Assembly: GCF_026151205.1 (NCBI RefSeq)
Contig: NC_087075.1
Span: 15,928,571 to 15,992,570, forward strand
Direction of reading: 5' to 3'
Source: Bolinopsis microptera
Taxonomy: Eukaryota > Ctenophora > Tentaculata > Lobata > Bolinopsidae
DNA: 64,000 bases
Below are positions 127 through 64,000 of this stretch, piece after piece; position 1 is the stretch's first letter, and each line of letters opens with the position of its first letter. The notes under the pieces were generated by a model that saw only the letters and a list, made by a program, of their open reading frames with translations, was not told the DNA's origin and ran no database searches. A program made the position numbers and the translations under genes.

Positions 127-1211
127 TTATTTGACAATGGCTAGCAGAAGAGACCTGTAATCTCCACTGGTCTCATCACTAATGTAGTCACTGAGACTCC
201 TATCCAGCAGTCTTCCGAACTCTACTTTTATCTCCTCCAGATCTATTTCTGATCTCCACACTATGACCCGTATTAGTTCGTCATCGTCTGTCCCTACTCC
301 CTTCATGATCTTAAAGAGCGCCTCAGCAAAGCACGCCGTGGGTCTCCTGATCAGGTTAACGATCTGCAGATATATCTCCTGATGTTCCCCTATCATCTCT
401 GATCGTATGCTCTCCCCAATATCCTCGTACGCTTCAACCCGGTACTCCGCGAACACCAACTTCAAGTGCTCGTAACCCCGGGAAGCCAGCAGAGCGTTGA
501 AAACAGGATCCTCCGTGCCGAACCTGTTAGGTCCAGCTTCTGAGAGGTCTTTAGCGTCTTGTTCAGCTAGGGCTGGGTCCGGTATCTCGCTCTCGTTTCT
601 GCTCCCTTGCAGAATTGCTAGAACCAACCGTTTGAAACCGCTGCTCACGTTTAACATACCGCCAAGGTCCCTTTCGATTGAAACGTTGAATTTTTGGATG
701 TAGAATATTTTCAGTTCGTTAAGGCTCCTATTATCCATGCCAATTAATACCTCTATAAGTGAGTGAGGCATACTCGTTTTTATGGCTCGGTGAGCTTCTT
801 TAGCCAGCAGCTGGGGTACTGGCAGGATTAAACTTTTTACCAGTTTTAAGAAATGGGAGCTGAGCTCCGATTTCAGTTCCGTTTTGAGGGATTTGCCGTA
901 CATTTTCTGAAATTTAATGTGATCGCCATTGTTGTTATTTGTAAAGATGAAATACCATTACATTAAAATGAGACGACTAAAATCACTGTAAAATTCTCGT
1001 ATTTATATGCCAAAGTAATAAAATGACAATGTGGATAAGAAAACGTTACCTTGAATTTGGTACAAATATCTAATCTCTGTTCAACTGTCCGGTTACTCAG
1101 TATCTTAATAATTGCAGCCTCGTCTGTTCCAATCCCCTTCATTGCTTTTTTGAGTTCTCGGCTGTCATTTTCAGCATTGCAGCTCTCATCCAAAACAATT
1201 GTCCCTGTCAT
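127..1211 (-). CDS. Annexin, complete two-exon gene
   Basis: Annexins bind phospholipid membranes in a calcium-dependent way. Exon 1 is 1211-1050 (54 codons, donor GTAACG) and exon 2 is 906-127 (acceptor TTTCAG, stop at 127-129); the join is in phase and gives 313 residues, the usual size of a four-repeat annexin core. Repeat I carries the KGIGTDE calcium loop with GTIV just after the start, as in typical short-tailed annexins. Exon 2 opens with KMYGKSLKTELKSELS, a classic repeat I motif. Repeat II is degenerate without a GxGT loop, repeat III has FGTEDPVF, and repeat IV has KGVGTDDDELIRVIVWRSE with the acidic residue of the calcium site. The tail is very short. The gene is divergent from the EF-hand gene, sharing a roughly 0.9-kb upstream region. 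The ATG at 1211 lies in a GGTAATGACAG motif that recurs in the repeats directly upstream, so a non-coding first exon is possible. Confidence 0.93.
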
Positions 1212-1410
1212 TACCTCTAATATGAAATGGTTTTTACTTATTATTGATCAAGGGCACTGCAATGATAACTGTCATTACCTGGGCTCTAATATGAAATGGT
1301 TTTTACTTATTATTGATCAAGGGCACTGCAATGATAACTGTCATTACCTGGGCTCTAATATGAAATGGTTTTTACTTATTATTGATCAAGGGCACTGCAA
1401 TTATAACTGA
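1207..1410. repeat. Three tandem ~69-bp repeats abutting annexin exon 1
   Basis: The block beginning TCATTACCT occurs at 1208, 1272 and 1341; the first spacing is 5 bases shorter. Each copy on the minus strand contains CAGGTAATGACAG, the motif holding the annexin start codon, so the array seems to have grown out of the 5' edge of the coding exon. Confidence 0.8.
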
Positions 1411-1419
1411 CCACTTAGA

Positions 1420-1625: not shown

Positions 1626-1636
1626 ATCAGTGATCT

Positions 1637-5100: not shown

Positions 5101-8100
5101 TTAGGTATTGTTATTAAACAGGAATTAAACTTTAAGCAGGAATTAAACATGAAATGACCAAGGAGAACACTAACGAACTCGTCTTGGTAATACAGCAATT
5201 CATAAAGACGATCAGAACTCTAAAAATCGAGAGAGAGCTATAAAAATAAAATCTTGAAAATTAACCGCGTTACAATTTCAGAGAAAAAAATCGAATATAA
5301 TAATTTAAATACGAGTAAAAAGGTATACTCTGTAAGACAACGCTATATCGAGAGATAAAATCCATAACTTGTACTTATTAAACCTTTTGATCGACTGATG
5401 AAAACACATGTTAATTACTGATTATTCTCCTTTTCTGGATATATTATGGGTTAATACATTATATATATACATTATTATTATATCTAATTTCAGGGGACTT
5501 CTATGATAAAGACGGTAGTGGTTTTTTGGAGTACTCCGAACTTGAAAGGTTCCTAAGGTAATTGTAAAACTGAAACTTTAAATCGTTTAACAAAGAATAG
5601 GCCCTGTAATTGTTTCCATCCTACGTTTGCGTTGTACAATGATTCGGGTAAAATCCAAAAAATTTAAGTATTAAATTTCGCCCCTAAAAATCAAATAGCC
5701 TTTTTTAATCTGGCTTGATTACCTCTAAATAAGGACTGGTAAGAATGTAACCTAATGAAATCTGTCTTTGATTTCAACAAGAGACTAAGTAAAGACTTGT
5801 AGTATAGTGTAAAGACTTGCTAATAATTTGCTCAGGGATCTCACAGAGGTAACTCTTGGAGAAGACGTTGACGAAGCAGAATATGAGAAGTTCAAAACCA
5901 AGATTATGGGAATGATAGATGACAACGAGAACGGAAAGTTAGAAGCTAAAGAACTGGTTAGCTGATCTAGATAAACTTAATTAGTTTCGATCCATTTTGT
6001 AAACTTCTACTTCAGCTCACTGGGAGACTTTGGGACCGGAAACTGATCCGGCCCCCAAAGAGGGGTCAGATCACGTCACTAATTAGTGACGTATAATTAG
6101 TGATGTGATCCATGGATTGAATTTAATTGACATAGAAATGTGCTAGATCTGGGGTAGAGTTCACATGTCAATTCTGTAAACCATAGCTGTACATTAAGAA
6201 GTAAACATGATCTGACGCTCGACTCGTAGATCACATAAGGGACGGGAGCTCTTGCTAAAGGGGGGGTTTGTTCTTTCTACACGACATACCCAACTCAAAT
6301 GAACTCTACCCCAGATCTAGCCCATTTCTAGGTCAATTATATTCAATCCATGGATCACATCACTGAAATGGGTCTTTTGTTCGCATGTGAAGCTCTTAAA
6401 ATATGTTTAATATAACACATGTTATGGGAGTAGCAGCTAAATCCACATTTGATAGAAAAGTGCTTATATCACAGCAAGGTATGTCACCCCCAGAGTTGGG
6501 ATGGTCTGAGGGTCTTATCTCCTTATCTGTATGCCAAGGCACTTTCTTACCCCCCAGTCCTGTTGAAGGGGAGTTAGTCCTGTTGAAGGGGGGTTAGTCC
6601 TGTTGAAGGGGGGTTAGTCCTGTTGAAGGGGGTTAGTCCTGTTGAAGGGGGGTTAGTCCTGTTGAAAGGGGGTTAGTCCTGTTGAAGGGGGGTTAGTCCT
6701 GTTGAAGGGGGGTTAGTCCTGTTGAAGGGGGGTTAGTCCTGTTGAAGGGGGGTTAGTCCTGTTGAAGGGGGGTTAGTCCTGTTGAAGGGGGGTTAGTCCT
6801 GTTGAAGTGGGGTTAGTCCTGTTGAAGGGGGGTTAGTCCTGTTGAAGGGGGTTTAGTCCTGTTGAAGGGGGGTTAGTCCTGTTGAAGGGGGTTAGTCCTA
6901 TGCCTATGCTATATATCCTTCTCCCCCAGTCCAAGATAATCCCGACAGAAGAGAACTTCCTGCTAGCGTACAGCATACAATCCCAGAACCTGGGGGCCCA
7001 GCTCTCCAGTCAGGACTTCTTAGAGATCTGGTGCCATTATGACAAGGATTGTAGTGGGTATCTGGATTTTACAGGTAATACTGAGTAATCATTATTGATA
7101 TAATCATTATATTACTTAATAATCATTAAAAAGCGGTGTCAAATCAAAATTGAATTGATGTCGTAGATCACCGAAAATGTCGCCTTTAATTTATTTACGT
7201 GTTAAATTAAGTCTTGTTCTTCAAAACTTGAATAAAAATTCAAAATTATCATGAGTTATATTGACCCGCAGAGGCGAAGGACTTCATGAAGGACATGCTG
7301 AAAGTGAACAGTGTGAAAGTTGACCTGAATAACGTTACCTACCTGGACACTTTCTTCAAAACATTTGATACTGATGATAACGGTAAGAGAAACCACTAGT
7401 TACCACTAGTTACCACTAGTTACCACTAGTTACCACTAGTTACCACTAGTTACCACTAGTTACCACTAGTTACCTACCTGGACACGTTCTTCAAAACATT
7501 TGATACTGATGATAACGGTAAGAGAAACCACTAGTTACCACTAGTTACCACTAGATACCACTAGTTACCACTAGTTACCTACCTGGACACTTTCTTCAAA
7601 ACATTTGACACTGATGATAATGGTAGAAACGTGAACTTTGTCCCAAACCAGCAAACCATAACCTAGCTATTCTTACACCATCACTCCAAATCAGATACCA
7701 CCAGTTACCATATATGTGTTTGGGTCGAGTGTGTCCGACCTTGCGAACAATAAATCAGCCTAATGACATGGATTATGGGCCAGAGTTATCACAACTATTG
7801 TTATCATCCACACGTTGGGCGGGTCACACCGTGCAATATGTAGGTATAATCTTGATAATATGGGTACCAAGAAATATCAGGAATATTATCCTCGACCCTA
7901 ACACATATAAGGATATAAGAACAAATTTGTAGCATGACATTATCCCAGCTATTCAAGTATTTAGTGCTGCAAACTGAGCAGCTGGTGGAGCAAGTCACTT
8001 GAAATTACTTAATTACTTAATTACTATAATTAAGTAATTAAGCCATTAATTAATTAATGGTTTTAATTGCTCCTGATAACACTTCTTCCCTGTAATTTCA

Positions 8101-11100
8101 AAAGAGAAATTGTTCCAAACGTCATCAGTCTCATAAGTACTTGTATTTGTAACATTTTGATATGATCTTATCAAAATCCCAGCCAGAAATGTCAAAATTC
8201 TTGTGCAATGTTATCATTAATTATGTAATTATGTAATTGTGTAATTATGTAATAATGTAATTATGTAATTATTTAATTATGTAATTATTTAATTATGTAA
8301 TTATGTAATTATGCAATTATATTATTATGTAATTATTTAATCATGTAATTATGTAATTATTTAATTATGTAATTGTGTAATTATGTAATTATGTAATTAT
8401 GTAATTGTTAATGTTATCCAGGTGTTATTGAAATTGATGAGATGGCAGCTATCTTCCCGGTAGAAGAGAGGTTTACGAATGCTCTGAAAGAGAGGAAAAG
8501 ATTTACTAAGGAGGAATTTGATAGGTTAGTTACCACCAGTTACCACCAGTTACCACTTGTAACCACTAGTTACCACTAGTTACCACTTGTCACCACTAGT
8601 TACCACTTGTCACCACTAGTTACTACTTGTCACCACTAGTTACCACTAGTCACCGCTAGTTGCGGTATATATCACAAATCACAATGGCTCTCGCACGCTA
8701 AATATGCAAGATATCTATTTGGGATATTCAGTATTATTTATTGGGAGCATGCTTGACAAAATAATTCATTAATTCTCAACCTTGTGAAGAATTTGTCATT
8801 CAAATAAACCTATAAATCAAAGTGAGAGAATTAGTATTTACAATGAGTTATTCAACGTTAATATTATACATTTATTTTGACAACCACTGCCATAAGATTA
8901 TTTACGATAGTTTAACGATACGATTTATCAATCAAATGTCGGCAGATATGGTTAGGTGACCCAACATTTAACCATTAGTTACCACTAGTTACCATTAGTT
9001 ACCACTAGTTACCACTAGTTACCATTAATATCAAATCTTTCAGATTATTTGACCAGTACGACACCAACAAATCAGGAATGGTGACAGCTAAACAGCTCCC
9101 TAAAATGATTTCAGACCTGTCTAAGATTAGTAAAACTAACCTCAACGATAAGCAGGTCGCTGAAATAAGCGGCAGATTGATACAGGTTCGTAACCATGAC
9201 AACACTTCATAACCAATAACCACTTCATAACCAATAACCAATTCAGGTCAGTGATTAAACTGTGTATTTAATAGTGGAAGCTGGGTGGTTTATTGCTGTC
9301 AGAACATTATAAACCCACCCCCCACCACCCCACCCCCACCACTCCACCCCCCCCCCCCCCCACCACCCCACCCCCACCACTCCACCCCCCCCCCCCACCC
9401 CCCACCCCCACCACCCCACCCCTCCCACCCCCCACCCCCACCACCCCCCCCCTCCCCCCCCCTCCCCCCACCCCCACCGGAATCAACATTTATAGATCTG
9501 AGAATGATTGAAGTTAATAATGATATTTTGAGTAATTTGAAAGTGTCAGGAATAAATGGCCGGTTTTGTTAATCACATTCTACCCAAATTCTATTTTTAG
9601 ATTTTTATTCACTCATGCACTATACTTCGTAAATGTGACCCGTCAACAATTGACTCAAACATTTTGACAACATTGGGGATACCCATTATACTTATAACAC
9701 CATGAAATTCTGACAACTGTCAACTATGTGTTAAACGATCACAGACACTTCGTAACCATGACAACACTTCACAGATATTACAAACTCAACCATAAATGAA
9801 CACTAAATACTTCCAGGTGAAGTTTACAAAATATTTTATATCCGACAAAGTAGTGAAAACTGCAAGTTCGTACATTCAAAGATTCAAATACTGTTTATAC
9901 AGGTTGTTTTCCTAGTCGCAATAATAATAGAGAACACTATAAATTTTTCCCCAGAAACATTCCAACAATGCGACCAATAGATTGTGTTCCAACCCGGATA
10001 TTACACTGTTTAGACATATGACTGAACTTTCTTTACACAGTTAAACAGTGGGAATATAAAACTATTATAATTATATATTATATTATAAATTATAATGTAT
10101 AATAGTGGGTAAACTATTATAATTATCTTCAGATGTTTGGACATGCTAACAAGCTTCCAAGGGACAAGATATCCCTGTTCTTGACGACAAAGTGCGTGTA
10201 CGAAGCGTTGGCACGTGACGGACACGACGAGACTTCGTAACCATGACAACACTTCATAACAAATAACCATGACGACACTTCGTAACCATGACAACACTTC
10301 ATAACCAATAACCATGACGACACTTCGTAACCATGACAACACTTCATAACCAATAACCATGACGACACTTCGTAACCATGACAACACTTCATAACCAATA
10401 ACCATGACGACATTTCGTAACCGTGCCGATACTATACCCACTTTTATCAAAACCATGACGACATGACTTGGAACCATACAAACTCTAAACTTGGAGACTT
10501 TATGTGACGAGTCAACCTGGCATTACATGGGAACTCAGGCTTTAATGTTTATTACTATTGGTAACAAGTGGTAACCAATAGTTACCACTAGCTACCACTT
10601 GCTGCTACCTGTTACCAATAGTTACCACTAGTTACCACTTGTTATCACTAGTTACTGGCGCTGTCCAGTAAACATGACTACTTAAATACTTTTCTAAACA
10701 CTTTGGCTTACCAGACATCAACCAGCCTGGCATTTTGCCAACAGTAAAATAGTAGTTTTCCAGTTCCATAACATTTTACCTTTCAGTTATTTAACTCTTT
10801 ACTCTGGACAATTCTCCGAACATTTGATTTACAAAATATCTTTGAGAAATAATTGATGGATCATGTAAAAAACAGAAGATGTATCGCAACACAATGTTTC
10901 TGGAACAATTTGTGAATTTTTGGATAAGTTAAACAGTGTGAATATTGTGTTGGATTCGTGTTATTGAGTCTCATGATTTGATAGTTCTTTCATTCAAATT
11001 TCTGATTGTTTCTGAATAGACTCAGTGAAGACAGATTCTAATGGAAATAAATATCTGAATAACGTATCGAAATTTTTACGTCATACTCATATTCTCATAT

Positions 11101-13480: not shown

Positions 13481-13482
13481 AC

Positions 13483-14542: not shown

Positions 14543-15065
14543 TAGTGTAAAATAAGGTTGGCACCAGAACAGTCCTCCCGGGGCGTACCAATGGTCAACA
14601 TTGCCTGCTCACAAAGGTACGGTAACGAAGTGGCGTACACGGGTAATTAAAATGTACAAGGGTACGATAGAGAAGTGTCGTACACAGTACTTAAGAAATA
14701 CACGGGCACGATATTGAAGTATCGCACACGGTACTTAAAGAAATATACGGGTACGATATCGAAGTCTCGTACACGAATACCTGCAAATCTCTAGCTCTCA
14801 AGCTCTGCAATTTCACTTTAGCTCTTACTGGCTACTGAGTGCCGTATGACTTTAAATATGATCGAATGACTTGATCGAGTCCTAAGTTAGGTAAGAACAA
14901 AGGAAACAGGGTATTCGAACAATAAGTCTCGAAGGGCAATAAATTACTATATGATCAATAAACCAGCTAACGGGGCAAGCAAAACCTACCAGCACTGGGT
15001 CACGTGACATCACATGGCGAACCACGTGACACCGCGCGGCCCAGTCTGTCCAATAACCTAACTTA
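14543..15065 (+). repeat. Left terminal inverted repeat
   Basis: Contains about four sub-repeats such as GTACGATATCGAAGTCTCGTAC, each a short imperfect hairpin (GTACGA...TCGTAC), at about 14615-14785. These look like iterated binding sites for a transposase or other factor. Confidence 0.85.
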
Positions 15066-15960: not shown

Positions 15961-15961
15961 A

Positions 15962-17570: not shown

Positions 17571-17583
17571 ACTCTTACTTAAC

Positions 17584-18971: not shown

Positions 18972-18984
18972 TCTGAATCGTATA

Positions 18985-19095
18985 AGTATTAGAGAAAAGT
19001 TACAGACAAAGCTGCAATTAACAAAAATTACAGACAAAGTTGCAATTTGTAACGAAATTACAGACAAAGTTGCAATTAGTATCAAAATTACATGA
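18985..19095. repeat. ATTACAGACAAAGTTGCAATT repeats
   Basis: Three copies of a ~24-28-bp unit just upstream of the zinc-finger ORF start, possibly part of its promoter region. Confidence 0.7.
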
Positions 19096-54500: not shown

Positions 54501-57500
54501 TTAGTTACTACTTAGTTAGTACTTAGTTAGTACTTAGTTAGTACTTAGTTAGTACTAAGTTAGTACTTAGTTAGTACCTAGTTAGTACATACCTCTCTTT
54601 TTCCTTTCTTATCTTTTCAGCTTCTTCCTCGAATAATTTGCTCTTTAATATTTCCTCCTCTCTTATCTTCCTCATCTGTTCCTCCTGGAATTACAGATTA
54701 TTGTATTGTATTGTATTGTATTGTATTGTATTGTATTGTATTGTATTGTATTGTATTGTATTGTATTGTATTGTATTGTATTGTATTGTATTGTATTGTA
54801 TTGTATTGTATTGTATTGTATTGTATTGTATTGTATTGTATTGTATTGTATTGTATTGTATTGTATTGTATTGTATTGTATTGTATTGTATTGTATTGTA
54901 TCAGACCTTTACAGATTAACTTGTGAGAGATGTTCGCGATTAAAAAGCTATAACTTGTAGCGAATAGCAAATTGCTAATTACAAATTAAATTATCATTCA
55001 AAATAAAAAATTACAAATAATCCCTCGCTAGACCTGTACCTGTTGTCTAATTACTAATTACTAATTACGCTAGACCTGTACCTGTTGTCTAATTACTAAT
55101 TACGCTAGACCTGTACCTGTTGTCTAATTACTAATTACTAATAACGCTAGACCTGTACCTGTTGTCTAATTATTAATTATTAATTACGCTAGACCTGTAC
55201 CTGTTGTCTAATTACTAATTACTAATTACGCTAGACCTGTACCTGTTGTCTAATTATTAATTACTAATTACGCTAGACCTGTACCTGTTGTCTAATTACT
55301 AATTACTAATTACGCTAGACCTGTACCTGTTGTCTAATTACTAATTACGCTAGACCTGTACCTGTTGTTGTTGTTCTTCAGCCAGTTTTGCTTCCATGAT
55401 TTGTCGCTGTGCTAAGAGGTATTTGTCGTTTTCCAGCTGGGCCAAGTGCTGTATTTCCTCCTGAAATTTAAAAAGGTTTTAATTATTTTGGATTTTTAAT
55501 TAGCAATATTAGATTGTTAGGGCTGAGATAAACTCTTTCTAAATCTCAAAAGATTTGGGTATGTTAGCCTAGCAGATATTAGTGGTTACTATTGGTTACT
55601 GGGGGTTACTATGGTTACTAGCAGCTATTAGTGAATCAAGGGAAGATTGTAAGTTGCTTTTCTATGGTATATATATATATATACAGGGTATTTCAAGAAT
55701 AATGTCCTGATTTTTAAAAACAATACATTTTTTTATAAAGGAGCAAAATGCCCATTATTGGTTGCCATTAGTTCATAAAGCTTACAAATTTAATTTGTTA
55801 AGCTCATTTGTTCCAGCGATTCAACTTTGTTAATTTTTTTGGCTCTGTTCCAAAAAGTCGAATTTTGAGAAAAATGGGGTTCACAAAAGAAACAAAACTC
55901 GATATTGTGAAGACTTATTGGATTTGTGGAAGCAGTGTGACAAGTGCTAGGCGTTTGCTACAGAAAAAGGACAAGTCTAAATTCAGCAATGATGAAAGGA
56001 CAATACGACGTCTTGTAAAGAAGCTAGAAACTGATTGTACCCTGATAAAGAACATGCGTACGGGTAGGCCGAAATCTGCTCTTTCTGAGAAGAATATCAA
56101 AAGGGTGCAAAGAAAATTAGAGAACAGTCCAAGGAGGTCAACCAGAACACTTGGTAGGGAGCTTAAGTTATCGACAACTTCAGTTTGGAGAATTTTGAGG
56201 AAAGAGCTGAAGAAGTTTGCCTAAAAAATTAAAATCAAACAGACACAAACTCCAAAAAATAGAGAACAAAGGACCGAATTTGGCAGCATGATGGCTGATC
56301 GCATCGAATCTGACTCAGAATTCTTGAAACAGATATTTTTTTCAGATGAGGCTCATTTTCATCTGAGCGGTCATGTCAATCGCCAAAATTGTAGGTTTTG
56401 GGCAGATGAGAACCCCTATGCAACAGTTGAGTCGCCTATCACTAGAGAGAAAGTCAGAGCTTGGATGGGGATCGGGTATCATGGTATTTTTCTCAAAATT
56501 CGACGTTTTGGAACGGAGCCAAAAAAATTAACAAAGTTGAATCGCTGGAACAAATGAGCTTAATAAATTAAATTTGTAAGCTTTATGAACTAATGGCAAC
56601 CGATAATGGGCATTTTGCTCCTTTATAAAAAAAATTATTGTTTTTTAAAATCAGGACATTATTTTTGAAACACCCTGTATATGGTATATATATATATTTC
56701 TGAACAGACTCGAGTAAAAACAGGATCAAGTCTTACAATGACATCATTAACACAGTAAACAAACAACCCAATTTATTTGTTAGTGAGTAGTGTTTAAGAA
56801 AAATAAACCTTTCCCTTGTCACTGTAGTTTTCTCCACAGTGTATTTAAGCAATAATTTATTAATTTATTCTAATAATTTATTAATTAATAAGTATATTTC
56901 ACCTCTTCTTTGACAAGTTTGCGTTGTTGTTCCAGTTTCACCGCCCTGTCTATCTCCTTTTTAATCTCCTCCGCTCTCCTTACCTGCTCACTATCCTGCG
57001 GGTTTTATAGCGTTACACACAGCCTCGTTACACACAGCCACGTTACACATAACTGCGTTACACACAGCCACGTTACACACAGCTGCGTTACACACAGCCA
57101 CGTTACACACAGCCACGTAACACACAGCCGCGTTACACACAGCTGCGTTACACACAGCTGCGTTACACACAGCCACGTTACACATAGCCACGTTACACAT
57201 AGCCACGTTACACATAGCCACGTTACACATAGCCACGTTACACATAGCTGCGTTACACATAGCTGCGTTACACACAGCTGCGTTACATAAAGTGAAAGCA
57301 ACGCGTTACACACAGCCACGTTACACACAGCCACGTTACACATAGCTGCGTTACACATAGCCACGTTACACACAGCTGCGTTACACATAGCTGCGTTACA
57401 CACAGCTGCGTTACATAAAGTGAAAGCAACGCGTTACACACAGCCACGTTACACACAGCCACGTTACACACAGCTGCGTTACACATAGCCGCGTTACACA

Positions 57501-60500
57501 CAGCTGCGTTACATAATGTGAAAGCAACGCGTTAGTAACGCCTAACAACTACGTTACACACAAGTAAAAAAGGTCACTTCAATGATCAAACCAAAAACAC
57601 CAAAATTGGCCCTGAAATCTAAATTTCTAGTTTATAAGACCGTTATAGCTGCTGGTTATTTGCACTTACCACGTTGAAGGTGTTAGTGAGACCGTTATAG
57701 CTGCTGGAGGTTTCCACCGTGCTCCCCCAGATACTGCCACTAGCACTGGTCGTCCAGGCGGGTACAGCTGCTGCTGAGGGGGTATGTTAGTTAGTGGGGG
57801 TTTTTATCCTTGAGGTCCCATATCACTTTTGATAGCTCGGTACTCAGTCTGTGCTTAGGATTTTTGAAGCTTTGTCGATGATTGTACCATCGTGTCTTAA
57901 AGCTGTTTTCTGTCAATCCAATATATGTCGAGTCCTTGTTTAATGCAGTTTTAACGGCTGCTTCGTAGACTATACATTTGGCCAGACATTGTCCTTTTAG
58001 GGGGCACTTTGAGGCGTCTCTGCAATTACACTATTTTTCTGGAGCTTTTCTCTTTTCAGATTGTTTCTCCAGGACTGATTTGTTGTGTCCTTTGAGTATC
58101 CTTTCCAAACTGGGCATGCAGCAATAGCTTATTTTCACGGTATTCCTATTGATTATTTTGTGTAACAGCAGATTTTTCGGGAAGTGCTTATCAATGAGAG
58201 CGAAGAACTTTCTTCCGATGTTGGTTGAAACATTTGCGCTGAATGGGGAAACGGATCGTTTGCCCGCCAATTTGATTTGGTTCAATTGTTCGAATTATAA
58301 TGCTCCTGCTTAAATGCAGTCGAGCACTCTCTTTGGGAAACCAACAACTATTTATTATTATTATTATTTACATATACGTACTTATATATAGATGGAACCG
58401 TTAAACTGCTAGATTTTTATGTGTGAATTCTTTCAGTCGAGGTTTCATTTTTGTTGACATTAAAAGCTAATCAACGTTTTTATTTCCACGTTTTTATTTC
58501 TACGGTCTAGAAGGTCATTAAAAGTTGTTCATCCTAAAAATATTAAAATTATCTCAAGCACATGTTAAAAATTGATCTTCAACTAAGTAAATTAACGTTA
58601 ATGTAGCTAAAGACATTAAACGATTCAATTATGTAATTAAGCTGCTCAAGTGATTCAATTATTTAATTAAATCTAATTAAATGATGAAGCTCAACTGAAA
58701 TAACCTCTTAACCTCCCCGTTAACTCCACTACCACTGTTCACACTGAATACAATAAGAACTCGTAACCAGCTTCACACGTATAATACACATAACAGGCGG
58801 GGTGTAACAACTAACACTCATGACTCAGTACAGAGATGTATAATGTATAATAATGTATTTAATGTATAAGGTCCTCGCTGCTCTTAGCCTCTTTAAATGC
58901 TTATTATTATTGCGTGGAGCTGCTGCATTATTGGGTATGTTAGGAGCATGCGGCTTATATTTCTAGAAGTTTTCAGATTATAGTTTGTGGATGAGTTTTT
59001 AACAAGATTGTGTTTTAAGTTCGTCTAGAAACCCCGGTTTAGGTAAATTATACTGACACGTACAGCATTGCATTTGTAATTTAGAGTGTAGACATTTGGT
59101 AAGATGTATAAAATATACACAATATGAAGGAAAACCACTCACATCAATATGCAATATGATACTAAAGTGCAACGTTACATGATTTACTTTGTTTACAATA
59201 CTATAAGTTATAGATCTTTAGTTTTACTGAAATATATAGAGTGAAGTCTGTAAGTAAAGTAGATAGAGTAATATGTAGAGTGAAGTGTTTAAGTAAAGTA
59301 GATAGAGTAATATATAGAGTGAAGTAGATAGAGTAATATACAGAGTGAAGTGTTTAAGTAACATAAACTGTGCTCTTTAATGTAGTCCTGAACAGAAACA
59401 TGCTTCAGAATTCTAATGTACTAGTATTGAAATGTAAAGCAATTTAAGTCCGGTATTTTCGTATGACATTTGCAATTCTAATGCCCACATTACAAAGATC
59501 AAATTGTATTAGAATATTATGTTGATCACATGCTATAATCTCACATTTTTTGAAAGTTATTAACTTTATTTAATTACGAGTATCACAAAGGTTATCATTG
59601 GTTGACACTAAGTGAGTAAGTGGGTTTATACTTTATTGTATTTACATAATATGTTTGAAAAAACTAAAAAAGAAGAACTGCCATTCAGAAGACTGAGAAA
59701 CACGTTCCCTCTATGTTCTGTCCAATCTCACTAATTGTACCACATGCCATAGAACACGTTGGATGACGTCATTATTGGATGACGTCATTATTGGATGACG
59801 TCATACCATAATAACAGGGGGCGACTTACCAGGGGACTGAGTGATGTGTCCTAGTTGGGATGTTTGCGGAGGGGGTGGCGACTTACCAGGGGACTGAGTG
59901 ATGTGTCCTAGTTGGGATGTTTGCGGAGGGGGCGGCGACTTACCAGGGGACTGAGTGATGTGTCCTAGTTGGGATGTTTGCGGAGGGGGCGGCGACTTAC
60001 CAGGGGACTGAGTGATGTGTCCTAGTTGGGATGTTTGCGGAGGGGGCGGCGACATACCAGGGGACTGAGTGATGTGTCCTAGTTGGGATGTTTGCGGAGG
60101 GGGTGGCGACTTACCAGGGGACTGAGTGATGTGTCCTAGTTGGGATGTTTGCGGAGGGGGCGGCGACTTACCAGGGGACTGAGTGATGTGTCCTAGTTGA
60201 GATGTTTGCGGAGGGGGCGGCGACTTACCAGGGGGCTGAGTGATATGTCCTAGTTGGGATGTTTGCGGAGGGGGCGGCGACTTACCAGGGGACTGAGTGA
60301 TGTGTCCTAGTTGGGATGTTTGCGGAGGGGGCGGCGACATACCAGGGGACTGAGTGATGTGTCCTAGTTGGGATGTTTGCGGAGGGGGCGACTTACCAGG
60401 GGACTGAGTGATGTGTCCTAGTTGGGATGTTTGCGGAGGGGGCGGCGACTTACCAGGGGGCTGAGTGATGTGTCCTAGTTGAGATGTTTGCGGAGGGGGT

Positions 60501-63500
60501 GGCGACTTACCAGGGGACTGAGTGATGTGTCCTAGTTGGGATGTTTGCGGAGGGGGCGACGACTTACCAGGGGACTGAGTGATGTGTTCTAGTTGGGATG
60601 TTTGCGGAGGGGGCGGCGACTTACCAGGGGACTGAGTGATGTGTCCTAGTTGAGATGTTTGCGGAGGGGGCGGCGACTTACCAGGGGGCTGAGTGATGTG
60701 TCCTAGTTGGGATGTTTGCGGAGGGGGCGACTTACCAGGGGACTGAGTGATGTGTCCTAGTTGGGATGTTTGCGGAGGGGGCGGCGACTTACCAGGGGGC
60801 TGAGTGATGTGTCCTAGTTGGGATGTTTGCGGAGGGGGCTGCGACTTACCAGGGGACTGAGTGATGTGTCCTAGTTGGGATGTTTGCGGAGGGGGCGACT
60901 TACCAGGGGACTGAGTGATGTGTCCTAGTTGGGATGTTTGCGGAGGGGGTGGCGACTTACCAGGGGACTGAGTGATGTGTCCTAGTTGGGATGTTTGCGG
61001 AGGGGGTGGCGACTTACCAGGGGACTGAGTGATGTGTCCTAGTTGAGATGTTTGCGGAGGGGGTGGCGACTTACCAGGGGGCTGAGTGATGTGTCCTAGT
61101 TGGGATGTTTGCGGAGGGGGCGGCGACTGCTTGTCTTCAGGCTGGAATGGTATGCGGCCACACTGCTGAATCATTATCTCTGTGGAAATTGGTGGAATGT
61201 TTATTTTGTTGGAGAAATTACAAAACATGCAAAATATTTAAGAGTTTGGTATATATATATATTATATGCTAGAGATATCTACTAGTGCGTTTGGAGTAAA
61301 ACGCCGATTACAAGAATAACTTTTAAATATAATTGAATTTCTCAAACTCTTCAAAATATATTATACCATAGGCCATAAAAACAAATCAAGATAAGATGAT
61401 GTGTTTTATAATTGCCGATACTCCAACATATTATCTACCTAATTTAGTAAACTGTTTGTCAGCAGAACGGTTCTTTTGCGATAGTCAAAACGCGACAACT
61501 AGCGCTGGATGGCGACAACTAGCGCTATCCAGCGCTAGTTGTCGCCATCCAGCGCTAGTTGTCGCTATCCAGCGCTGGATAACGCTGGCCAGCGCAAAAT
61601 ATATATGTTCGATAATTGTCGCTATCCAGCGCTAGTTGTCGCCATCCAGCGCTAGTTGTCGCCATCCAGCGCTAGTTGTCGCTATCCAGCGCTAGTTGTC
61701 GCTGGCTATGCGACACTGTCGCACGCGATAGTTTGCGATGGCCAGCGCAACTGGCCATCGCAGAAAACAGTTCGATAACTAGCGCTGGATAGCGACAACT
61801 AGCGCTGGATAGCGACAACTAGCGCTGGCCAGCGCTGGCCAGCGCTGGCCATCGATATCCAGCGCAAAATTTTTGCGCTATTACTCGTCAGCTAGCGCTA
61901 GCCAGCGCTAGCCAGCGCTAGCCAGCGCTAACCAGCGCTAGCCAGCGCTAGCCAGCGCTAGCTGACGAATAATATCGCAACTATATTGCGCTGGCCAGCG
62001 CTGGCTGACGAGTAATACTAATATCGAGCGTGCTAAATCACTTTACAGTCGATCTTCGAGATTGTTCTAAAAGGGCCCCCGATGGTTGTAAGTGTAACCA
62101 ACTTCAATCGATGCAATGTATTTTCGGACGCTAATTCCGAATCAACCCCCATGACATAGGGTTAAAATGCTCTCCTGACGAGATATTGGCGAAAAACTGT
62201 ATCGATCACGTGATATGACCGTATAAGGAAGTTAGTCTAATTTCTCGTTAGGGCTAGGGTTTCAGCATATGTTTTTGTTAAGGATTGGGTTAGGGTTAGG
62301 GTTGGGATCAGATTTATAGAGGGTTAGGGTTTCAAAAAGTCGTTCAGAACCAGCTAGAGTCAGAGAATGGGTTAAAAAGTCACGTGACAGTCGAGTGTAA
62401 AGTGATTAATCATCATCCGAGTAATATCGCAAGCATATGATTTTGATACATTGCGCTGGCTAGCGCTGGTTAGCGCTGGTTAGCGCTGGCTAGCGCTGGT
62501 TAGCGCTGGTTAGCGCTGGCTAGCGCTGGTTAGCGCTGGTTAGCGCTGGCTAGCGCTGGTTAGCGCTGGCTAGCGCTGGCTAGCGCTGGCTAGCGCTGGC
62601 TAGCGCTGGTTAGCGCTAGCTGACGAGTAATAGCGCAAAAATTTTGCGCTGGATATCGATGGCCAGCGCTGGCCAGCGCTGGCCAGCGCTAGTTGTCGCT
62701 ATCCAGCGCTAGTTGTCGCCATCCAGCGCTAGTTATCGAACTGTTTTCTGCGATGGCCATTTGCGCTGGCCATCGCAAACTATCGCGTGCGACAGTGTCG
62801 CATAGCCAGCGACAACTAGCGCTGGATAGTGACAACTAGCGCTAGATGGCGACAACTAGCGCTGGATGGCGACAACCAGCGCTGGATAGCGACAGTTATC
62901 GAACATATATATTTTGCGCTGGCCAGCGTTATCCAGCGCTGGATAGCGACAACTAGCGCTGGATGGCGACAACTAGCGCTGGATAGCGCTAGTTGTCGCC
63001 ATCCAGCGCTAGTTGTCGCGTTTTGACTATCGCAAAAGAACCAGCAGAAAGTCTAATCTGTGGTTACTAGTGGTTACTAGTGGTTACTATTGGTTACTAT
63101 TGGTTACTGGGGGTTACTATGGTTACTATGCAATGGTTACTAGAGGTATTTACCTAATTTAGTAAACTGTGTGTCAGCAGAACGTCTAATCTGTGGTTAC
63201 TAGTGGTTACTAGTATAGTGGTTACTATTGGTTACTGGGGGTTACTATGGTTACTATGCAATGGTTACTAGGGGTATTTACCTAATTTCGTAAACTGCGT
63301 GTCAGCAGAACGTCTAATCTGTGGTTACTAGTGGTTACTAGTGGTTACTAGTGATTACTATTGGTTACTATTGGTTACTATGGTTACTGTGGTTACTATG
63401 GTTACTATGCAATGGTTACTAGAGGTATTTACCTAATTTAGTAAACTGTGTGTCAGCAGAACGTCTAATCTGTGGTTACTAGTGGTTACTAGTGGTTACT

Positions 63501-63669
63501 ATTGGTTACTATGGTTACTATGGTTACTATGCAATGGTTACTAGAGGTATTTACCTAATTTAGTAAACTGCGTGTCAGCAGAACGTCTAATCTTAAGATC
63601 CATCCCGAAGTAACCCTCTTTAAACCAACCAAACATTTTGACAGAGTCGAACGGTCCTTGAGTGTTACC
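39470..63669 (-). CDS. GIGYF: GIGYF (GRB10-interacting GYF protein), partial at 5' end and probably at 3' end
   Basis: GIGYF proteins are cytoplasmic adaptors that, with 4EHP and CCR4-NOT, repress translation of chosen mRNAs; the GYF domain binds proline-rich PPG motifs. Exons in transcript order: 63669-63555, 61179-59830 (or shorter), 57773-57670, 56995-56903, 55460-55362, 54684-54593, 53570-53466, 42924-42762, 42346-42128, 41784-41650, 41503-41363, 41077-40944, 40651-40536, 39576-39470. Every junction keeps phase. Recognised parts: GYF domain (exons 1-2), SIWGS motif, a long charged coiled coil (exons 4-8), SLAEIQREEE, a polyglutamine and Lys/Pro stretch, FTIWCESQ, and VPTFISFLRDVESPREV...YLGDT, all colinear with animal GIGYF1/2. 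Exons before the GYF domain lie beyond the right edge. The exon after 39470 was not found. Confidence 0.92.
39835..40535. repeat. 47-bp minisatellite starting at a GIGYF donor
   Basis: About 14 copies of GTTACCACCTAGTTACTGCA plus GTTACCATGGTTACTACA. On the coding strand the array begins at the donor of exon 40651-40536. Confidence 0.93.
40536..40651 (-). CDS. GIGYF: GIGYF exon, start of conserved C-terminal helical region
   Basis: Codes KKNNQAPLLDMFANSTPKDE, FTIWCESQVSGF; corresponds to the FTQWCEQML segment of vertebrate GIGYF2. Donor GACG|GTAACT is the first unit of the 47-bp array. Confidence 0.88.
40944..41077 (-). CDS. GIGYF: GIGYF exon with Lys/Pro and Gln stretch
   Basis: 44 codons plus 2 nt; NNDWNPVAGMLEDD, then Lys/Pro-rich and a seven-Gln run. 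Donor TCTAA|GTAAGT. Confidence 0.82.
41363..41503 (-). CDS. GIGYF: GIGYF exon with SLAEIQREEE motif
   Basis: 47 codons, phase 0 to 0. The SLxEIQxEE motif is a GIGYF hallmark. The 3' edge (CAGAATCTTAACTAC|GTGAGT) is duplicated at about 41312-41340 with its own GTAAGT. Confidence 0.88.
41650..41784 (-). CDS. GIGYF: GIGYF exon
   Basis: 45 codons, phase 0 to 0, acceptor CTGTTTCAG, donor CCT|GTAAGA. Contains KTWGKPD and SIPLSQIQQDEAKM. Confidence 0.8.
42027..42121. repeat. C-rich tract downstream of a GIGYF donor
   Basis: Three ~30-bp degenerate units of C-runs plus CCCTCCC(T/C)AA(A/G)TTGT. On the sense (minus) strand this is G-run-rich, starting 7-20 bases after the donor at 42128. Confidence 0.85.
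42128..42346 (-). CDS. GIGYF: GIGYF exon, coiled coil end and Trp motifs
   Basis: Codes ASAIKEARRQADAKAKRDEQ to ENVWATKV and NPWANM. Two acceptors in the same phase are possible (42346, or 42367 adding LPGLLSQ). The donor ATG|GTTAGT is followed by G-rich DNA. Confidence 0.83.
42385..42612. repeat. 25-bp minisatellite GAGTCACAAGATTGAGAGGT
   Basis: About nine copies directly upstream (sense) of the acceptor at 42346/42367; some units lack TT. Confidence 0.88.
42762..42924 (-). CDS. GIGYF: GIGYF exon, coiled coil
   Basis: Codes ERHLVKLKEEELRRRDEEE to AKALAKAQEEAT; acceptor TTTTCCAG, donor ACC|GTGAGT. Joins in phase across a ~10-kb intron that holds the TSP1 gene. Confidence 0.87.
42930..46195. 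other. GIGYF intron, 3' part
   Basis: Mostly AT-rich. Open frames at 44434-44814 and 44787-45116 (+) have no recognisable features. A duplicated TGGTTACTAA / CCCCTTCCTGGAAATGAG phrase lies at 45478-45585. Confidence 0.5.
46272..46585. repeat. 17-bp minisatellite GGTAACCATGGTAACAA
   Basis: About 18 copies; two positions have CCAACTAACC instead. The core GTAACCATGGTAAC fits the RFX X-box consensus GTHNYYATRRNAAC. It lies about 95 bp past the stop codon of the TSP1 gene. Confidence 0.95.
46680..47867 (-). CDS. Secreted protein with three thrombospondin type 1 repeats and a C-terminal galactose-binding-like domain
   Basis: 395 residues in one exon; ATG at 47867. A signal peptide (about 1-20, VVLLTLLVLIVTS) is followed by a Lys/Cys-rich segment (21-82), then three TSP1 repeats of 57 residues (about 86-252), each with WSDFGDWSDCSAACGGG and GDAEETQECNDQPC. 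The 171-bp DNA units (47116, 47287, 47458) are almost identical, so they are recent copies or kept alike by conversion. Residues 253-395 form a domain with DDHTTVYIDGV, VIAVKCYNGGGGYGIVAG, DNSWRC and a final YCR, resembling jelly-roll carbohydrate-binding domains of invertebrate secreted proteins; exact family unsure. It is nested in a GIGYF intron on the same strand. Confidence 0.85.
   Translation of the reverse strand: MKHFCASVVLLTLLVLIVTSYECPLKKKKLNKKIKQYNRKCLQKGFQSSLGCESSDGQLKKKASRKCGKLEQVLKKCGHTCPTDGNWSDFGDWSDCSAACGGGSQKRTRSCSDPAPANGGSNCVGDAEETQECNDQPCIIDGKWSDFGDWSDCSAACGGGSQKRRRSCSDPAPANGGSNCVGDAEETQECNDQPCIIDGKWSDFGDWSDCSAACGGGSQKRTRSCSDPAPANGGSNCVGDAEETQECNDQPCEYSLKVFCDDHTTVYIDGVQKYTDTNWQALASLSVPSPTRVIAVKCYNGGGGYGIVAGMKDAEGNDFMVSDNSWRCAGVEESGWEKPDFIEGENWKQPQDRGDGHFMIRAGSPWNQINSADRRSIWSSGGGNDKTAYCRKILI
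47900..48680. other. Upstream region of the TSP1 gene
   Basis: Probably holds the promoter of the TSP1 gene; no clear TATA box at a standard distance. The phrase TTCAAACCTGGTTGGTGGTTTTGTTTC (48420-48446) recurs inverted near 50290-50320. Confidence 0.45.
48684..49435. repeat. ~316-330-bp tandem repeat, two full and one partial copy
   Basis: Copies start with GTTCAGACCAGTTT at 48692, 49008 and 49338. Each has ATCAACCATATT and TTGTACTTGGGCCCAAAACATTG. Weak open frames inside are not convincing genes. Confidence 0.85.
49436..50520. other. GIGYF intron, no gene recognised
   Basis: AT-rich; shares the inverted CTGGTTGGTGG phrase with 48420. No coding signal. Confidence 0.45.
50535..51060. repeat. 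Inverted GTTACTAGGGTTACTAG blocks
   Basis: GTAACCCTAGTAACC copies at 50542-50605 face GGTTACTAGGGTTACTAG copies at 50882-51035, each joined to TAACACTATGATATAG-like text; together they could form a long hairpin. Confidence 0.75.
51229..51745. repeat. ~63-bp minisatellite GGACCTGCTAATTACTGTTA
   Basis: Eight to nine copies; the rest of the unit is GTTACTATGGTTACTAGGG steps ending in CCCCC. It starts after a run of ten G. Confidence 0.92.
52127..52187. repeat. Poly-C tract
   Basis: About 60 bp, nearly all C with a few G. Run length is likely uncertain in an assembly. Just after it a 33-bp phrase (ACTAAATGAATTGAGAGGTA) occurs twice. Confidence 0.85.
52458..52772. repeat. GGTTACTAGGGCTACTAT array
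   Basis: About 30 nine- to ten-base steps of GGTTACTA(G/T) with GGGCTACTAT variants. On the GIGYF sense strand each step is GTAACC. Confidence 0.92.
53010..53465. repeat. Three further copies of a GIGYF exon end alternating with GTAAC arrays
   Basis: Each copy has ~75 bp of the exon (sense: GTGAGACACGAGCTGGAGCA to AAACTTGAGAA) plus GTAAGT, separated by 60-90 bp of CTAGGGTTA steps. The copies are almost identical to the exon. Confidence 0.9.
53466..53570 (-). CDS. GIGYF: GIGYF exon, coiled coil, with 3' part repeated downstream
   Basis: Codes LELERIRQAEKVRHELEQ, AEKARYALEQERIKLE; phase 2 in and out. The 3' two-thirds with donor GAA|GTAAGT occurs again at about 53318-53396, 53155-53232 and 53012-53090. 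Confidence 0.85.
53600..54355. other. GIGYF intron, no gene recognised
   Basis: AT-rich; the only repeat is a short AAACC run near 54185. Nothing coding is seen. Confidence 0.45.
54358..54590. repeat. AGTACTTAGTT array at a GIGYF donor
   Basis: About 20 units of 11-12 bp. On the sense strand the array begins with the donor GTATGTACTAAC. Confidence 0.92.
54593..54684 (-). CDS. GIGYF: GIGYF exon, coiled coil
   Basis: 30 codons plus 2 nt; EEQMRKIREEEILKSKLFEE and following. Donor GAGAG|GTATGTACTAAC leads directly into the AGTACTTAGTT array. Confidence 0.87.
54700..54899. repeat. (TTGTA)n pentanucleotide microsatellite, about 40 copies
   Basis: About 200 bp of perfect repeat, ending 15 bases upstream (sense) of the acceptor of exon 54684-54593. 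Confidence 0.98.
55022..55361. repeat. ~35-45-bp array carrying an exon edge and donor
   Basis: Eight to nine units of CGCTAGACCTGTACCTGTTG plus TCTAATTACTAATTA steps. Sense strand: CAACAG|GTACAGGTCTAGCG, identical to the end and donor of exon 55460-55362. Confidence 0.92.
55362..55460 (-). CDS. GIGYF: GIGYF exon, coiled coil ending in Gln run
   Basis: 33 codons, phase 0 to 0; EEIQHLAQLENDKY to AEEQQQQ. Its donor CAACAG|GTACAG is the seed motif of the following array. Confidence 0.88.
55684..56677 (+). mobile_element. Internally deleted mariner element with ~190-bp inverted repeats
   Basis: Ends CAGGGTATTTCAAGAATAAT and complement ATTATTTTTGAAACACCCTG, flanked by TA on each side (55682-55683, 56678-56679) in a TATATA tract. 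The inverted repeats are long (about 55684-55875 and 56490-56677) and mostly matching. Confidence 0.88.
55874..56557 (+). pseudogene. Mariner-type transposase, broken and lacking its C-terminal half
   Basis: First frame 55874-56224 (116 codons) has the paired helix-turn-helix region: MGFTKETKLDIVKTYW, ARRLLQKK, GRPKSALSEKN. After a stop, a second frame (56288-56557) has IFFSDEAHFHLSGHVNRQNC, the first catalytic Asp block, then KVRAWMGIGYHGIFLKI. The sequence then jumps into the right inverted repeat, so the second and third catalytic acids are gone. Confidence 0.87.
56700..56902. other. GIGYF intron between mariner and next exon
   Basis: AT-rich spacer, no features seen. Confidence 0.4.
56903..56995 (-). 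CDS. GIGYF: GIGYF exon, start of coiled coil
   Basis: 31 codons, phase 0 to 0; DSEQVRRAEEIKKEIDRAV and following. Acceptor AACCCGCAG stands at the edge of the 15-bp array. Confidence 0.87.
57003..57535. repeat. 15-bp minisatellite GTTACACACAGCCAC
   Basis: About 33 copies with CTGC/CCAC/CCGC and CACA/CATA variants, broken three times by ACATAAAGTGAAAGCAACGC. It starts eight bases from the acceptor of exon 56995-56903. Confidence 0.94.
57670..57773 (-). CDS. GIGYF: GIGYF exon with SIWGS motif
   Basis: Acceptor CCCTCAG with NAGNAG variants (CAGCAGCAG), donor GTG|GTAAGT. Codes AAVPAWTTSASGSIWGS and a Ser/Asn tail; matches the SxWG-rich segment of GIGYF proteins. Confidence 0.85.
57790..58290 (-). 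pseudogene. Penelope-like GIY-YIG endonuclease fragment
   Basis: Frame: NVSTNIGRKFFALIDKHFPK, HKIINRNTVKISYCCMPS, an in-frame TAG, then CNCRDASKCPLKGQCLAKC (cysteine cluster), STYIGLTENSFKTRW (GIY-YIG core) and ELSKVIWDLKDKNPH with a stop. These are the C-terminal modules of Penelope-like proteins. The reverse transcriptase is absent here. Confidence 0.85.
58300..59760. other. GIGYF intron, AT-rich, with short tandem patch
   Basis: A patch of AGATAGAGTAATATATAGAGTGAAG repeats lies at 59228-59360. Otherwise nothing is recognised. Confidence 0.5.
59764..59803. promoter_or_regulatory. Three tandem palindromic CRE motifs TGACGTCA
   Basis: TGACGTCA at 59764-59771, 59780-59787 and 59796-59803, in a 16-bp repeat. 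This is the full CREB/ATF site. It lies in the GIGYF intron just past the last repeat donor; function is inferred only. Confidence 0.6.
59820..61130. repeat. 57-bp coding minisatellite with 23 splice donors
   Basis: Units of 57 or 54 bp (one or no extra Pro codon), spacing always a multiple of three. Sense strand ends CCCTG|GTAAGTCGCC in each unit. Confidence 0.95.
59830..61179 (-). CDS. GIGYF: GIGYF exon: end of GYF domain plus in-frame Pro/Gln repeats, 23 possible ends
   Basis: Acceptor TTTCCACAG; begins EIMIQQCGRIPFQPEDKQ, the conserved end of the GYF domain (GRVPF in vertebrates). It then enters 22 repeats of 18-19 residues, SPPPPQTSQLGHITQ(S/P)PGK. Each unit ends CCTG|GTAAGT (two have GTATGT), always phase 1, so the exon could end at any of 23 donors between 61075 and 59830. 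The shortest form has 105 nt, the longest 1350 nt; all stay in frame with the next exon. The longest form would add about 415 residues. Confidence 0.8.
61180..61460. other. GIGYF intron with one copy of the GYF-exon edge
   Basis: 61433-61468 has CTACCTAATTTAGTAAACTG and GTCAGCAGAAC, a diverged copy of the GYF exon 3' edge, which is cut by the foldback element. Confidence 0.7.
61469..63042. mobile_element. 1.57-kb foldback element with 8-bp target duplication
   Basis: Ends GGTTCTTTTGCGATAGTC and complement GACTATCGCAAAAGAACC. AGCAGAAC (61461-61468) and AGCAGAAA (63043-63050) flank it; the uninterrupted copies of the target nearby read AGCAGAACGTCTAATC. Arms of about 540 bp consist of AGCGCT-based palindromes (CCAGCGCTAGTTGTCGC and CTAGCGCTGG) and mirror each other. 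No coding capacity. An 8-bp duplication suits hAT or MULE families. Confidence 0.88.
62009..62435. mobile_element. Repeat nested at the centre of the foldback element, with TTAGGG-like blocks
   Basis: Not made of AGCGCT units. AAATCACTTTACAGTCGA (62035) and TCGAGTGTAAAGTGATT (62393) form short inverted ends. 62226-62412 matches 13483-13622 in reverse complement and includes GGGTTAGGGTTAGGGTTGGG. Confidence 0.75.
63050..63554. repeat. Array of GYF-exon 3' edges and GGTTACTAGT steps
   Basis: Four blocks. Sense strand of each: ATTAGACGTTCTGCTGACAC, CAGTTTACTAAATTAG|GTAAATACC, then GTAACC steps. Copies lie at about 63043-63057 (partial), 63150-63192, 63280-63322 and 63428-63470, next to the true edge at 63552-63592. 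Confidence 0.92.
63555..63669 (-). CDS. GIGYF: GIGYF exon: main part of the GYF domain
   Basis: Acceptor ATATTTCAG, donor TTAG|GTAAAT, phase 1 out. Codes QGPF, MFGWFKEGYFGMDLKIRR and DTQFTKL, which are the GP[YF]xxxxMxxWxxxGYF signature of the GYF fold. Both of its edges are multiplied in flanking arrays. Confidence 0.93.
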
Positions 63670-63671
63670 CT

Positions 63672-64000
63672 GAAATATTTTATTAAGTTATGTAAACGGT
63701 CCTTGAGTGTTACCCTGAAATATTTTATTAAGTTATGTAAACGGTCCTTGAGTGTTACCCCGAAATATTTTATTAAGTTATGTAAACGGTCCTTGAGTGT
63801 TACCCCGAAATATTTTATTAAGTTATGTAAACGGTCCTTGAGTGTTACCCTGAAATATTTTATTAAGTTATGTAAACGGTCCTTGAGTGTTACCCTGAAA
63901 TATTTTATTAAGTTATGTAAACGGTCCTTGAGTGTTACCCTGAAATATTTTATTAAGTTATGGAAACAGTCCTTGAGTATTACCCTAAAATATTTTATTA
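63672..64000. repeat. 45-bp array of GYF-exon acceptors, runs to window end
   Basis: Seven-plus units of ACGGTCCTTGAGTGTTACCC plus TGAAATATTTTATTAAGTTA. Sense strand: AATATTTCAG|GGTAACACTCAAGGACCGT, the acceptor and first bases of the GYF exon repeated upstream. Confidence 0.95.

Follow-up and report, generated by a model that had tools for sequence, protein, structure and literature searches.

In the comb jelly Bolinopsis microptera, a 64,000-nt stretch of contig C4 (C4:15928571-15992570, hereafter the window) holds a calbindin-like EF-hand gene and a GIGYF gene whose introns are crowded with tandem arrays, several of which carry the end of an exon and its splice site inside the repeat unit. 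An earlier note on this DNA had attributed such arrays to a genome-wide process seeding repeats at exon-intron borders, or to selection keeping many splice signals. We consider them, with a probability of about 0.6, to be dense, fast-turnover intronic minisatellites, otherwise ordinary, whose edge-spanning copies are tolerated without any dedicated machinery. Exon edges are carried at chance level for arrays this dense, arrays are nearly excluded from exons, and copy numbers differ strongly between two genomic copies of the same genes. Nearness of arrays to donors is about twofold above expectation and is weighed below as evidence pointing the other way.

Exon edges and the arrays on them

The genome searched comprises 264.65 Mb in 232 contigs, of which C4 accounts for 16,326,010 bases. 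The genes concerned are the following:

1211 down, minus strand: annexin gene
2148-11631, plus strand: calbindin-like gene with six EF-hands
64000 down to 39470, minus strand: GIGYF gene

The EF-hand model comprises 8 exons encoding 296 aa and matches the database protein P0001 gaplessly, with 9 differences and all 7 junctions continuous. The GIGYF model, comprising 14 exons and 575 aa in the window, likewise aligns gaplessly, with 4 differences, to P0015, the NCBI-named Bolinopsis microptera GIGYF2-like protein, isoform X2, and seven further exons lie upstream within 20 kb next to the window. Because the protein matches are gapless, 20 of the 21 donors used in the placement tests fall at junctions inside the matches, the sole exception being the last GIGYF donor (39470), where the P0015 match ends. 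The 22 acceptors of the rotation test include that of an EF-hand open reading frame (ORF) at 10133-10240, which is without protein support. GIGYF exon 3 starts at 57770, where P0015 takes the second AG of a tandem NAGNAG acceptor (57770-57773).

Both loci occur a second time on C4, the annexin/EF-hand region in inverted orientation at 15.773-15.817 Mb and the GIGYF gene in the same orientation, 312 kb away, at 15.65-15.68 Mb (copy B, the window-side gene being copy A). The translation of copy B equals P0015 at 1007/1007 residues, across which the window copy shows 9 differences and one additional residue. The second copies may be unmerged haplotypes or paralogues; if unmerged haplotypes, they would inflate gene counts. 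Residues 1008-1089 of P0015, belonging to the last GIGYF exons, are present in copy B; neither the window nor the adjoining 20 kb gave a tblastn match to them. Either the gene is cut short in the window, or different haplotypes meet in the assembly below 39470.

Tandem Repeats Finder (TRF) returned 107 rows for the window, merged into 66 arrays that cover 16,174 of 64,000 bases (25%), and minisatellites make up approximately 35-36% of the tested intron sequence. Arrays almost spare the exons, as locally duplicated 24-mers occupy 32.8% of intron windows vs 4.7% of exon-interior windows. The earlier note had counted at least ten places in which the repeat unit includes an exon end with its splice site or the array starts at the donor, and 12 were checked. 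The observation largely holds. At six of the 12 the junction is verified and the repeat unit includes exon bases, on both sides in the case of exon 63669:

7334..7625, plus strand: array of EF-hand exon 5 (EF5), 135-bp unit with 49 nt of exon end, the donor GTAAGA and ACCACTAGTT repeats; three exon-end copies
63650..64000, continuing beyond the window, minus strand: acceptor array, 45-bp unit of intron end, TTTCAG and the first 20 nt of exon 63669-63555 (GNTQGPF)
63060..63593, minus strand: donor array of exon 63669, unit with 39 nt of exon end, the donor GTAAAT and the TAGTAACC minisatellite
59820..61128, minus strand: 57-bp donor array (GKSPPPPQTSQLGHITQSP) of exon 61179, 54 exon nt in the unit (TRF and P0015)
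55026..55368, minus strand: 42-bp donor array with the last 7 nt of exon 55460-55362 and the donor GTACAG
53009..53539, minus strand: 147-bp higher-order array with 74 nt of the end of exon 53570-53466, GTAAGT and the GGTTACTAG minisatellite
41310..41377, minus strand: two-copy duplication of the end of exon 41503-41363 and its donor (GTGAGT / GTAAGT), the copies being exact over 17 nt; no TRF call

At four further places the array abuts the donor and exon bases are absent from the unit:

8527..8661, plus strand: ACCACTAGTT-type array starting at +3 of the donor of EF exon 6 (EF6; TRF)
9203..9245, plus strand: array beginning 18 nt inside the intron past EF exon 7 (TRF)
54364..54588, minus strand: 11-bp array beginning 5 nt inside the intron past exon 54684-54593 (TRF)
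39823..40511, minus strand: 47-bp-based array with its TRF start 25 nt past exon 40651-40536

For the remaining two places named in the note a splice site was not demonstrated; they are described with the other arrays below.

Units within these arrays are often nearly identical. The acceptor array of exon 63669, an exon verified by P0015, extends beyond the window to 28.0 copies in all, and the exon-plus-donor part (45 nt) of its donor array is found in four copies with 0 or 1 mismatch. The array of exon 55460 contains ACAACAGGTACAGGTCTAGCG (21 nt, including the 7 exon nt) in 9 exact copies, and in GIGYF intron 7 an exon-plus-donor stretch of 77 nt recurs in 4 identical copies. The 57-bp array has 23 donor copies (21 GTAAGT and 2 GTATGT) at spacings of 54 or 57 nt in 22/22 cases, with a frame open through 23 units and every donor in the same phase, while P0015 has one unit only.

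Two GIGYF introns hold additional features. Intron 1 bears an inserted element (61470-63041) rich in AGCGCTGG, with inverted arms identical at 512/529 aligned nt; it sits within an exon-edge copy, with TTCTGCTG at both flanks, and the copy B intron there is 622 nt long. Nested in intron 7 on the same strand is an ORF (47112-47618) built of 171-bp repeats, with 3.0 units vs 4.0 in copy B.

Array placement and turnover between genomic copies

All placement tests concern the EF-hand and GIGYF genes, whose two genomic copies are not independent of each other; arrays outside the two gene spans, the annexin junctions and the 41503 duplication, which has no TRF call, are left out. Under free rotation in the gene spans, 10/21 donors lay in an array or no more than 25 nt from one vs 8.5 expected (p 0.33), donors inside arrays numbered 4 vs 7.1 expected, and acceptors inside arrays were also fewer than expected (1/22 vs 7.5). 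This deficit of splice sites inside arrays fits the removal of arrays from exons. An intron-confined null, in which donors reached 7 vs 0.68 expected, was dropped as evidence because it clips four spanning arrays to zero distance by construction.

A spanning-tolerant null, in which arrays were placed so that one exon edge may be spanned, was applied to 20 introns, 14 of which had arrays. Spanned donors were at expectation (4 vs 3.45, p 0.47) and remained so under six TRF settings (p 0.36-0.66), and acceptors gave no excess, with 5 vs 4.33 within 25 nt and 0 vs 3.5 spanned. When the upstream exons were included (27 introns), spanned donors were 3 vs 4.07 in copy A and 7 vs 5.50 in copy B, and spanned acceptors 2 vs 4.02 and 2 vs 5.94, respectively. 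TRF places array edges differently according to the strand it reads, and the donor array of exon 63669 is therefore spanning in the 20-intron test and at +25 in the 27-intron test, hence the 4 vs 3 spanned donors.

Compared between the two copies, exons are 98.4% identical, a figure that leaves out one GIGYF exon of unequal length (121 vs 118 nt), and alignable unique intron sequence is 97.3% identical with gaps not counted. Of the indels of at least 12 nt in the 27 introns and flanking exons, 29/91 are tandem copy changes. At exon 63669 the acceptor array has 28.0 units on the window side vs 2.0 in copy B, the donor array having 3.0 units in copy B. The 57-bp array has 23.1 vs 33.5 units, the 42-bp array of exon 55460 has 7.9 vs 15.5, and the 11-bp array at 54364..54588 has 20.5 vs 3.3; a 25-bp array between exons 42924 and 42346 (42388-42598) rises from 8.6 units to 196.8 (4.9 kb) in copy B. 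In the EF-hand gene, the EF6 array has 13.5 copies in the window vs 45.5 in the second copy, and a 21-bp array before the last exon has 3.8 units vs approximately 1.3. At exon 40651, copy B has an 18-bp array that starts on the last exon base.

In four cases compared, the exon edge is arrayed in only one of the two copies. The second copy of EF5 has a plain 10-bp ACCACTAGTT array that starts 10 nt past the exon and lacks exon-end copies, and in the window the three exon-end copies are joined to the array at a shared GTTACC. The simplest order suggested by these sequences is that the exon edge was captured once the array already existed, loss in the other copy being the alternative. The donors of two GIGYF exons upstream of the window, N1 and N2, are single in copy A and lie in 3.2 and 20.6 donor-carrying units in copy B, with CTGATTG at both sides of the duplicated N1 stretch. 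The acceptor of exon 40651 is arrayed in copy B and single in copy A. The N1 and N2 donors both begin a dyad (GTAAGGGCTTAC and GTAAGTAAACTTAC), and in copy B they have TTACCTACTTTATTATTGC in common, which would be explained by the copying of part of intron N1 into N2.

The annotated protein uses the exon-proximal sites. P0015 has no second copy of any exon edge, though copy B has 33.5 donor units at exon 61179 and 2.0 and 11.8 acceptor units at two other exons. The latter figure belongs to the GIGYF exon coding for VGGEMLRG, next to the window, whose acceptor fitting P0015 lies inside the minisatellite TAGTAACCACAG without a clear pyrimidine tract; its array has 3.0 units in copy A.

Other loci, short words and neighbouring features

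Outside this locus, six DNA pieces were inspected. An annexin exon on contig C7 (L009) has copies of CCTCAG plus GGTCTGGGAA on its acceptor side and, on its donor side, 46.2 units of 33 bp, each made of 24 exon nt and GTTAGTAAC and in frame where read; it seems to have been captured at both edges, the donor being presumed. In another annexin piece on C7 (L007) the matched exon is followed by a clean donor, and an array starts 24 nt downstream of the next donor, which is presumed. L008 and L036 contain no arrays. In two CCT genes (14 matched exons with 12 gaps between them, 68 N in one) a single 2.2-copy array was found, 95 nt from the nearest matched exon; among these 12 gaps no array lies within 90 nt of a matched exon, and none is on an exon edge.

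The donor word AGGTAAGT forms 1797 tandem pairs at 28-58 nt genome-wide vs 44 for the reversed word, the single-word counts being 10,758 and 7,965, respectively. This ratio is not counted as support because composition-matched words vary widely and one control word is weak. In 234 kb, 560 such words had a tandem partner in 18.8% of copies when pooled, and the 246 words seen at least 8 times ranged from 0 to 88% with a 90th percentile of 36%, whereas 0/10 copies of AGGTAAGT in the same 234 kb had one. The 100 AGGTAAGT pair matches listed come from five loci on C1, and two of these share a 32-bp unit. One of the five (428574-430927), with a 54-bp unit, looks like an exon end with a putative donor.

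The earlier note had found GTAAC or GTAAGT shared by most of these places. GTAAC/GTTAC occurs in 27/66 arrays, intergenic ones included, and in both orientations, as the sense strand carries mostly GTAAC in 11 and mostly GTTAC in 8 of the 19 in-gene arrays with the word. GGTAAC is present in 18 arrays vs 1.85 in controls. In addition, GGTTACTAGGGTTACTAGGG has 78 exact genome matches (42 and 36 by strand), 39 of them in this C4 stretch, vs 0 for the reversed word. The GTAAC word thus marks a dispersed minisatellite family and is not a splice signal. Donor-like sites, scored with a matrix built from real donors, predominate on the sense strand in 6 arrays, on the antisense strand in 7 and on neither in 35, so that by array number an excess of sense donors is not found; summed, they amount to 41 sense and 27 antisense sites, 23/41 of the sense ones coming from the 57-bp array alone. 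Contigs in IMG/VR that contain GGTTACTAGGG were set aside as unrelated, with ORFs that look phage-like and encode repeat-rich proteins. A possible resemblance of GTAACCATGGTAAC to RFX X-box sites was set aside.

Further arrays of the window lie near exons or ORF ends:

42023..42118, minus strand: G-rich array beginning 10 nt past exon 42346-42128 (TRF)
11428..11506, plus strand: 21-bp array ending 3 nt upstream of the last EF exon (11509), its unit repeating TTTCCAG
1215..1409, minus strand: 69-bp array shortly before the annexin ATG (1211)
10226..10422, plus strand: 45-bp array covering the last 15 nt and the stop codon of ORF 10133-10240

The last two had been listed as splice-site arrays of annexin exon 1 and of an EF-hand exon '9b', an assignment that finds no support in either case. 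The 69-bp array ends 4 nt before the ATG and has no counterpart in the TRF rows listed for the second copy. The 45-bp array covers the end of an ORF that P0001 does not use, the protein taking exon 11509-11631 instead. Elsewhere, a 66-bp array (2695-4824) is split into 8.0 and 7.0 units by approximately 1.1 kb with part of a long minus-strand ORF and counts 14.1 units in the second copy. A 5-kb region containing ORFs and an array of 40 units of 39 bp is bounded by two 45-bp arrays (14611-14775 and 19830-19989) whose units are complementary, and the whole from 14611 to 19989 looks like a transposon with long terminal arms.

Explanations and known systems

New arrays would arise by tandem duplication, in one closely read case between short direct repeats. 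A duplication reaching from the intron into the exon would give a unit that carries the exon edge and the splice site. Tolerance of such duplications may rest on continued splicing at the exon-proximal site, i.e. the first donor or the last acceptor, by which the extra copies would become intron and leave the mRNA unchanged. Duplications wholly within exons would mostly be removed. Tolerance at the edges combined with removal from exons would therefore make array edges pile up at exon edges without dedicated machinery. Survival is probably easier at donors, which require few bases, than at acceptors, where branch point, pyrimidine tract and AG must stay. We infer that the pattern is due to tolerance and not to directed seeding, and that splicing seldom turns to the extra sites.

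Several results weigh against this reading. Under the spanning-tolerant null, 10 donors lie within 25 nt of an array vs 4.29 expected (p 0.001; p 0.0007-0.0087 across the six TRF settings), and in the 27-intron test the figures are 10 vs 5.04 in copy A (p 0.008) and 13 vs 7.04 in copy B (p 0.007). Local duplication density 12-60 nt into the intron is 0.52 vs 0.31 at donors (p 0.005, mask rotation inside introns), with no excess at acceptors by the same measure (0.26, p 0.74). Arrays private to one copy lie on exon edges in 4/9 cases vs 1.1 expected (p 0.013), 3/9 on donors and 1/9 on an acceptor vs 0.54 expected each, and with a looser identity limit in 5/10 cases (p 0.004). Moreover, one annotated isoform per gene does not show that the distal sites are idle. 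A simple tolerance model does not predict these excesses and leaves a modest additional donor bias unexplained.

The donor excess and the private arrays on donors are what would be produced by a mutational process that starts duplications at intron 5' ends more often than elsewhere; template switching is one candidate, and slippage favoured by dyads near the donor, such as GTAAGGGCTTAC, another. The C7 annexin exon with arrays on both edges and 46.2 units on its donor side, the array 24 nt past the presumed donor of L007 and, weakly, given its single control word, the pair ratio of AGGTAAGT point the same way. Edge spanning itself, however, is at chance, the private-array figure is weaker than its p value because exon-bearing units are easier to recognise by their conserved exon part, AGGTAAGT lacks tandem partners in the 234 kb, and the two CCT genes keep their exon edges free of arrays. 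Such edge-directed seeding is thus rather unlikely, and the genome-wide seeding proposed earlier is neither shown nor excluded: in the two genes donor proximity exceeds randomised placement, as had been expected of it, and spanning does not. Its fuller form appears equally doubtful, namely seeding at exon edges, donors foremost, tied to splice-site sequence or transcription, with many sites in growing arrays of identical sites and new arrays arising between copies less than 3% apart in alignable unique intron. If it were true, the arrays inspected, with 28 acceptor units and with 33 and 46 units on the donor side, would exemplify such runs of spare sites.

That selection keeps redundant splice-signal arrays, with spare sites buffering splicing, would agree with the 57-bp array, whose 23/23 donor copies keep GTAAG or GTATG (the pattern by which they were found) at spacings divisible by 3, and with the identical exon-plus-donor copies of GIGYF intron 7. 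The even strand balance of donor-like sites and the exon-proximal sites of the annotated protein argue against it, homogeneity in a young array needs no selection, and the 57-bp units differ by 3 synonymous and 5 non-synonymous variants vs 50 and 121 opportunities; this second proposal of the earlier note is quite improbable. The same 57-bp units, with their regular spacing, open frame and constant donor phase, together with the 33-bp array of the C7 annexin exon, in frame where read, could instead suggest that some arrays are coding, the 57-bp one being kept in some isoforms and adding proline-rich repeats. P0015 (isoform X2) has only one unit, isoform X1 lying outside the comparison, and the variants among the units show no sign of coding constraint, so that a coding role is improbable. 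Highly improbable is the view that the arrays made the introns, i.e. intron gain through tandem duplication of AGGT-bearing exon sequence, a route documented in other organisms (PMC3443670; potato, PMC4974935). The intron is present in the copies in which the edge is single (N1, N2 and the exon-40651 acceptor) or without exon-edge copies (EF5); therefore the arrays did not make the introns in these four cases.

Tandem runs of 2 to approximately 30 near-identical donors or acceptors with the exon partly copied provide a natural test bench for spliceosome choice (proximal use, exon definition); on the C7 annexin exon, provided that its presumed donor is real, the run length would be 46. Were the excess near donors to recur across the whole genome, it would suggest that mutation is biased in a way linked to splice sites. 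Among the open-licence literature matches listed, no paper describes such a bias and no comb-jelly paper describes this exon-edge pattern; the Hormiphora genome paper gives a TRF figure of 13% tandem repeats, describes many nested genes and does not use the word 'minisatellite'.

Single-gene precedents are published for what had been called a process without a named system. In human ABCA7, the first two bases of the 25-bp unit of a variable number tandem repeat (VNTR) in intron 18 are the donor GT of exon 18, alleles range from approximately 12 to approximately 427 units, and retention of one unit occurs (PMC5954066). Both systems have the donor in the repeat; ABCA7 differs in being a single locus whose unit starts at the donor without exon bases and in that its splicing effect was measured, whereas the comb-jelly arrays are known from sequence. 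Repeat units of human IFI6 act as alternative donors (PMC4526556, citing Turri et al. 1995), again at a single locus and with alternative donor use in transcripts, whereas the annotated comb-jelly protein shows the first donor only. A functional donor inside the repeat unit, as in ABCA7 and IFI6, is found at EF5 and at exons 63669, 61179, 55460 and 53570. Copy number differs strongly between the two genomic copies, which would match the allelic variation of a VNTR if they are alleles and not paralogues.

Internal tandem repeats at exon-intron boundaries were also described by De Grassi and Ciccarelli (2009) in human segmentally duplicated genes, where minisatellite copy changes at boundaries likewise occur in recent gene copies (PMC2812944). 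The human boundary repeats can create new introns, whereas the comb-jelly arrays were added to introns already in place, with no change in the annotated protein. The duplications behind intron gain (PMC4974935, PMC3443670) likewise cross the exon-intron boundary and copy splice signals; they yield a new intron, and in the four cases compared here none arose, as all four copies without an exon-edge array retain the intron. Introner-type mobile introns are near-identical introns inserted at many genes; the introns here vary widely in length. The comb-jelly exon-edge arrays are a denser form of what individual human genes already show. Since the two gene copies show the steps of a plain intronic array, edge capture and expansion, they open to observation how splice-site VNTRs such as those of ABCA7 and IFI6 originate.

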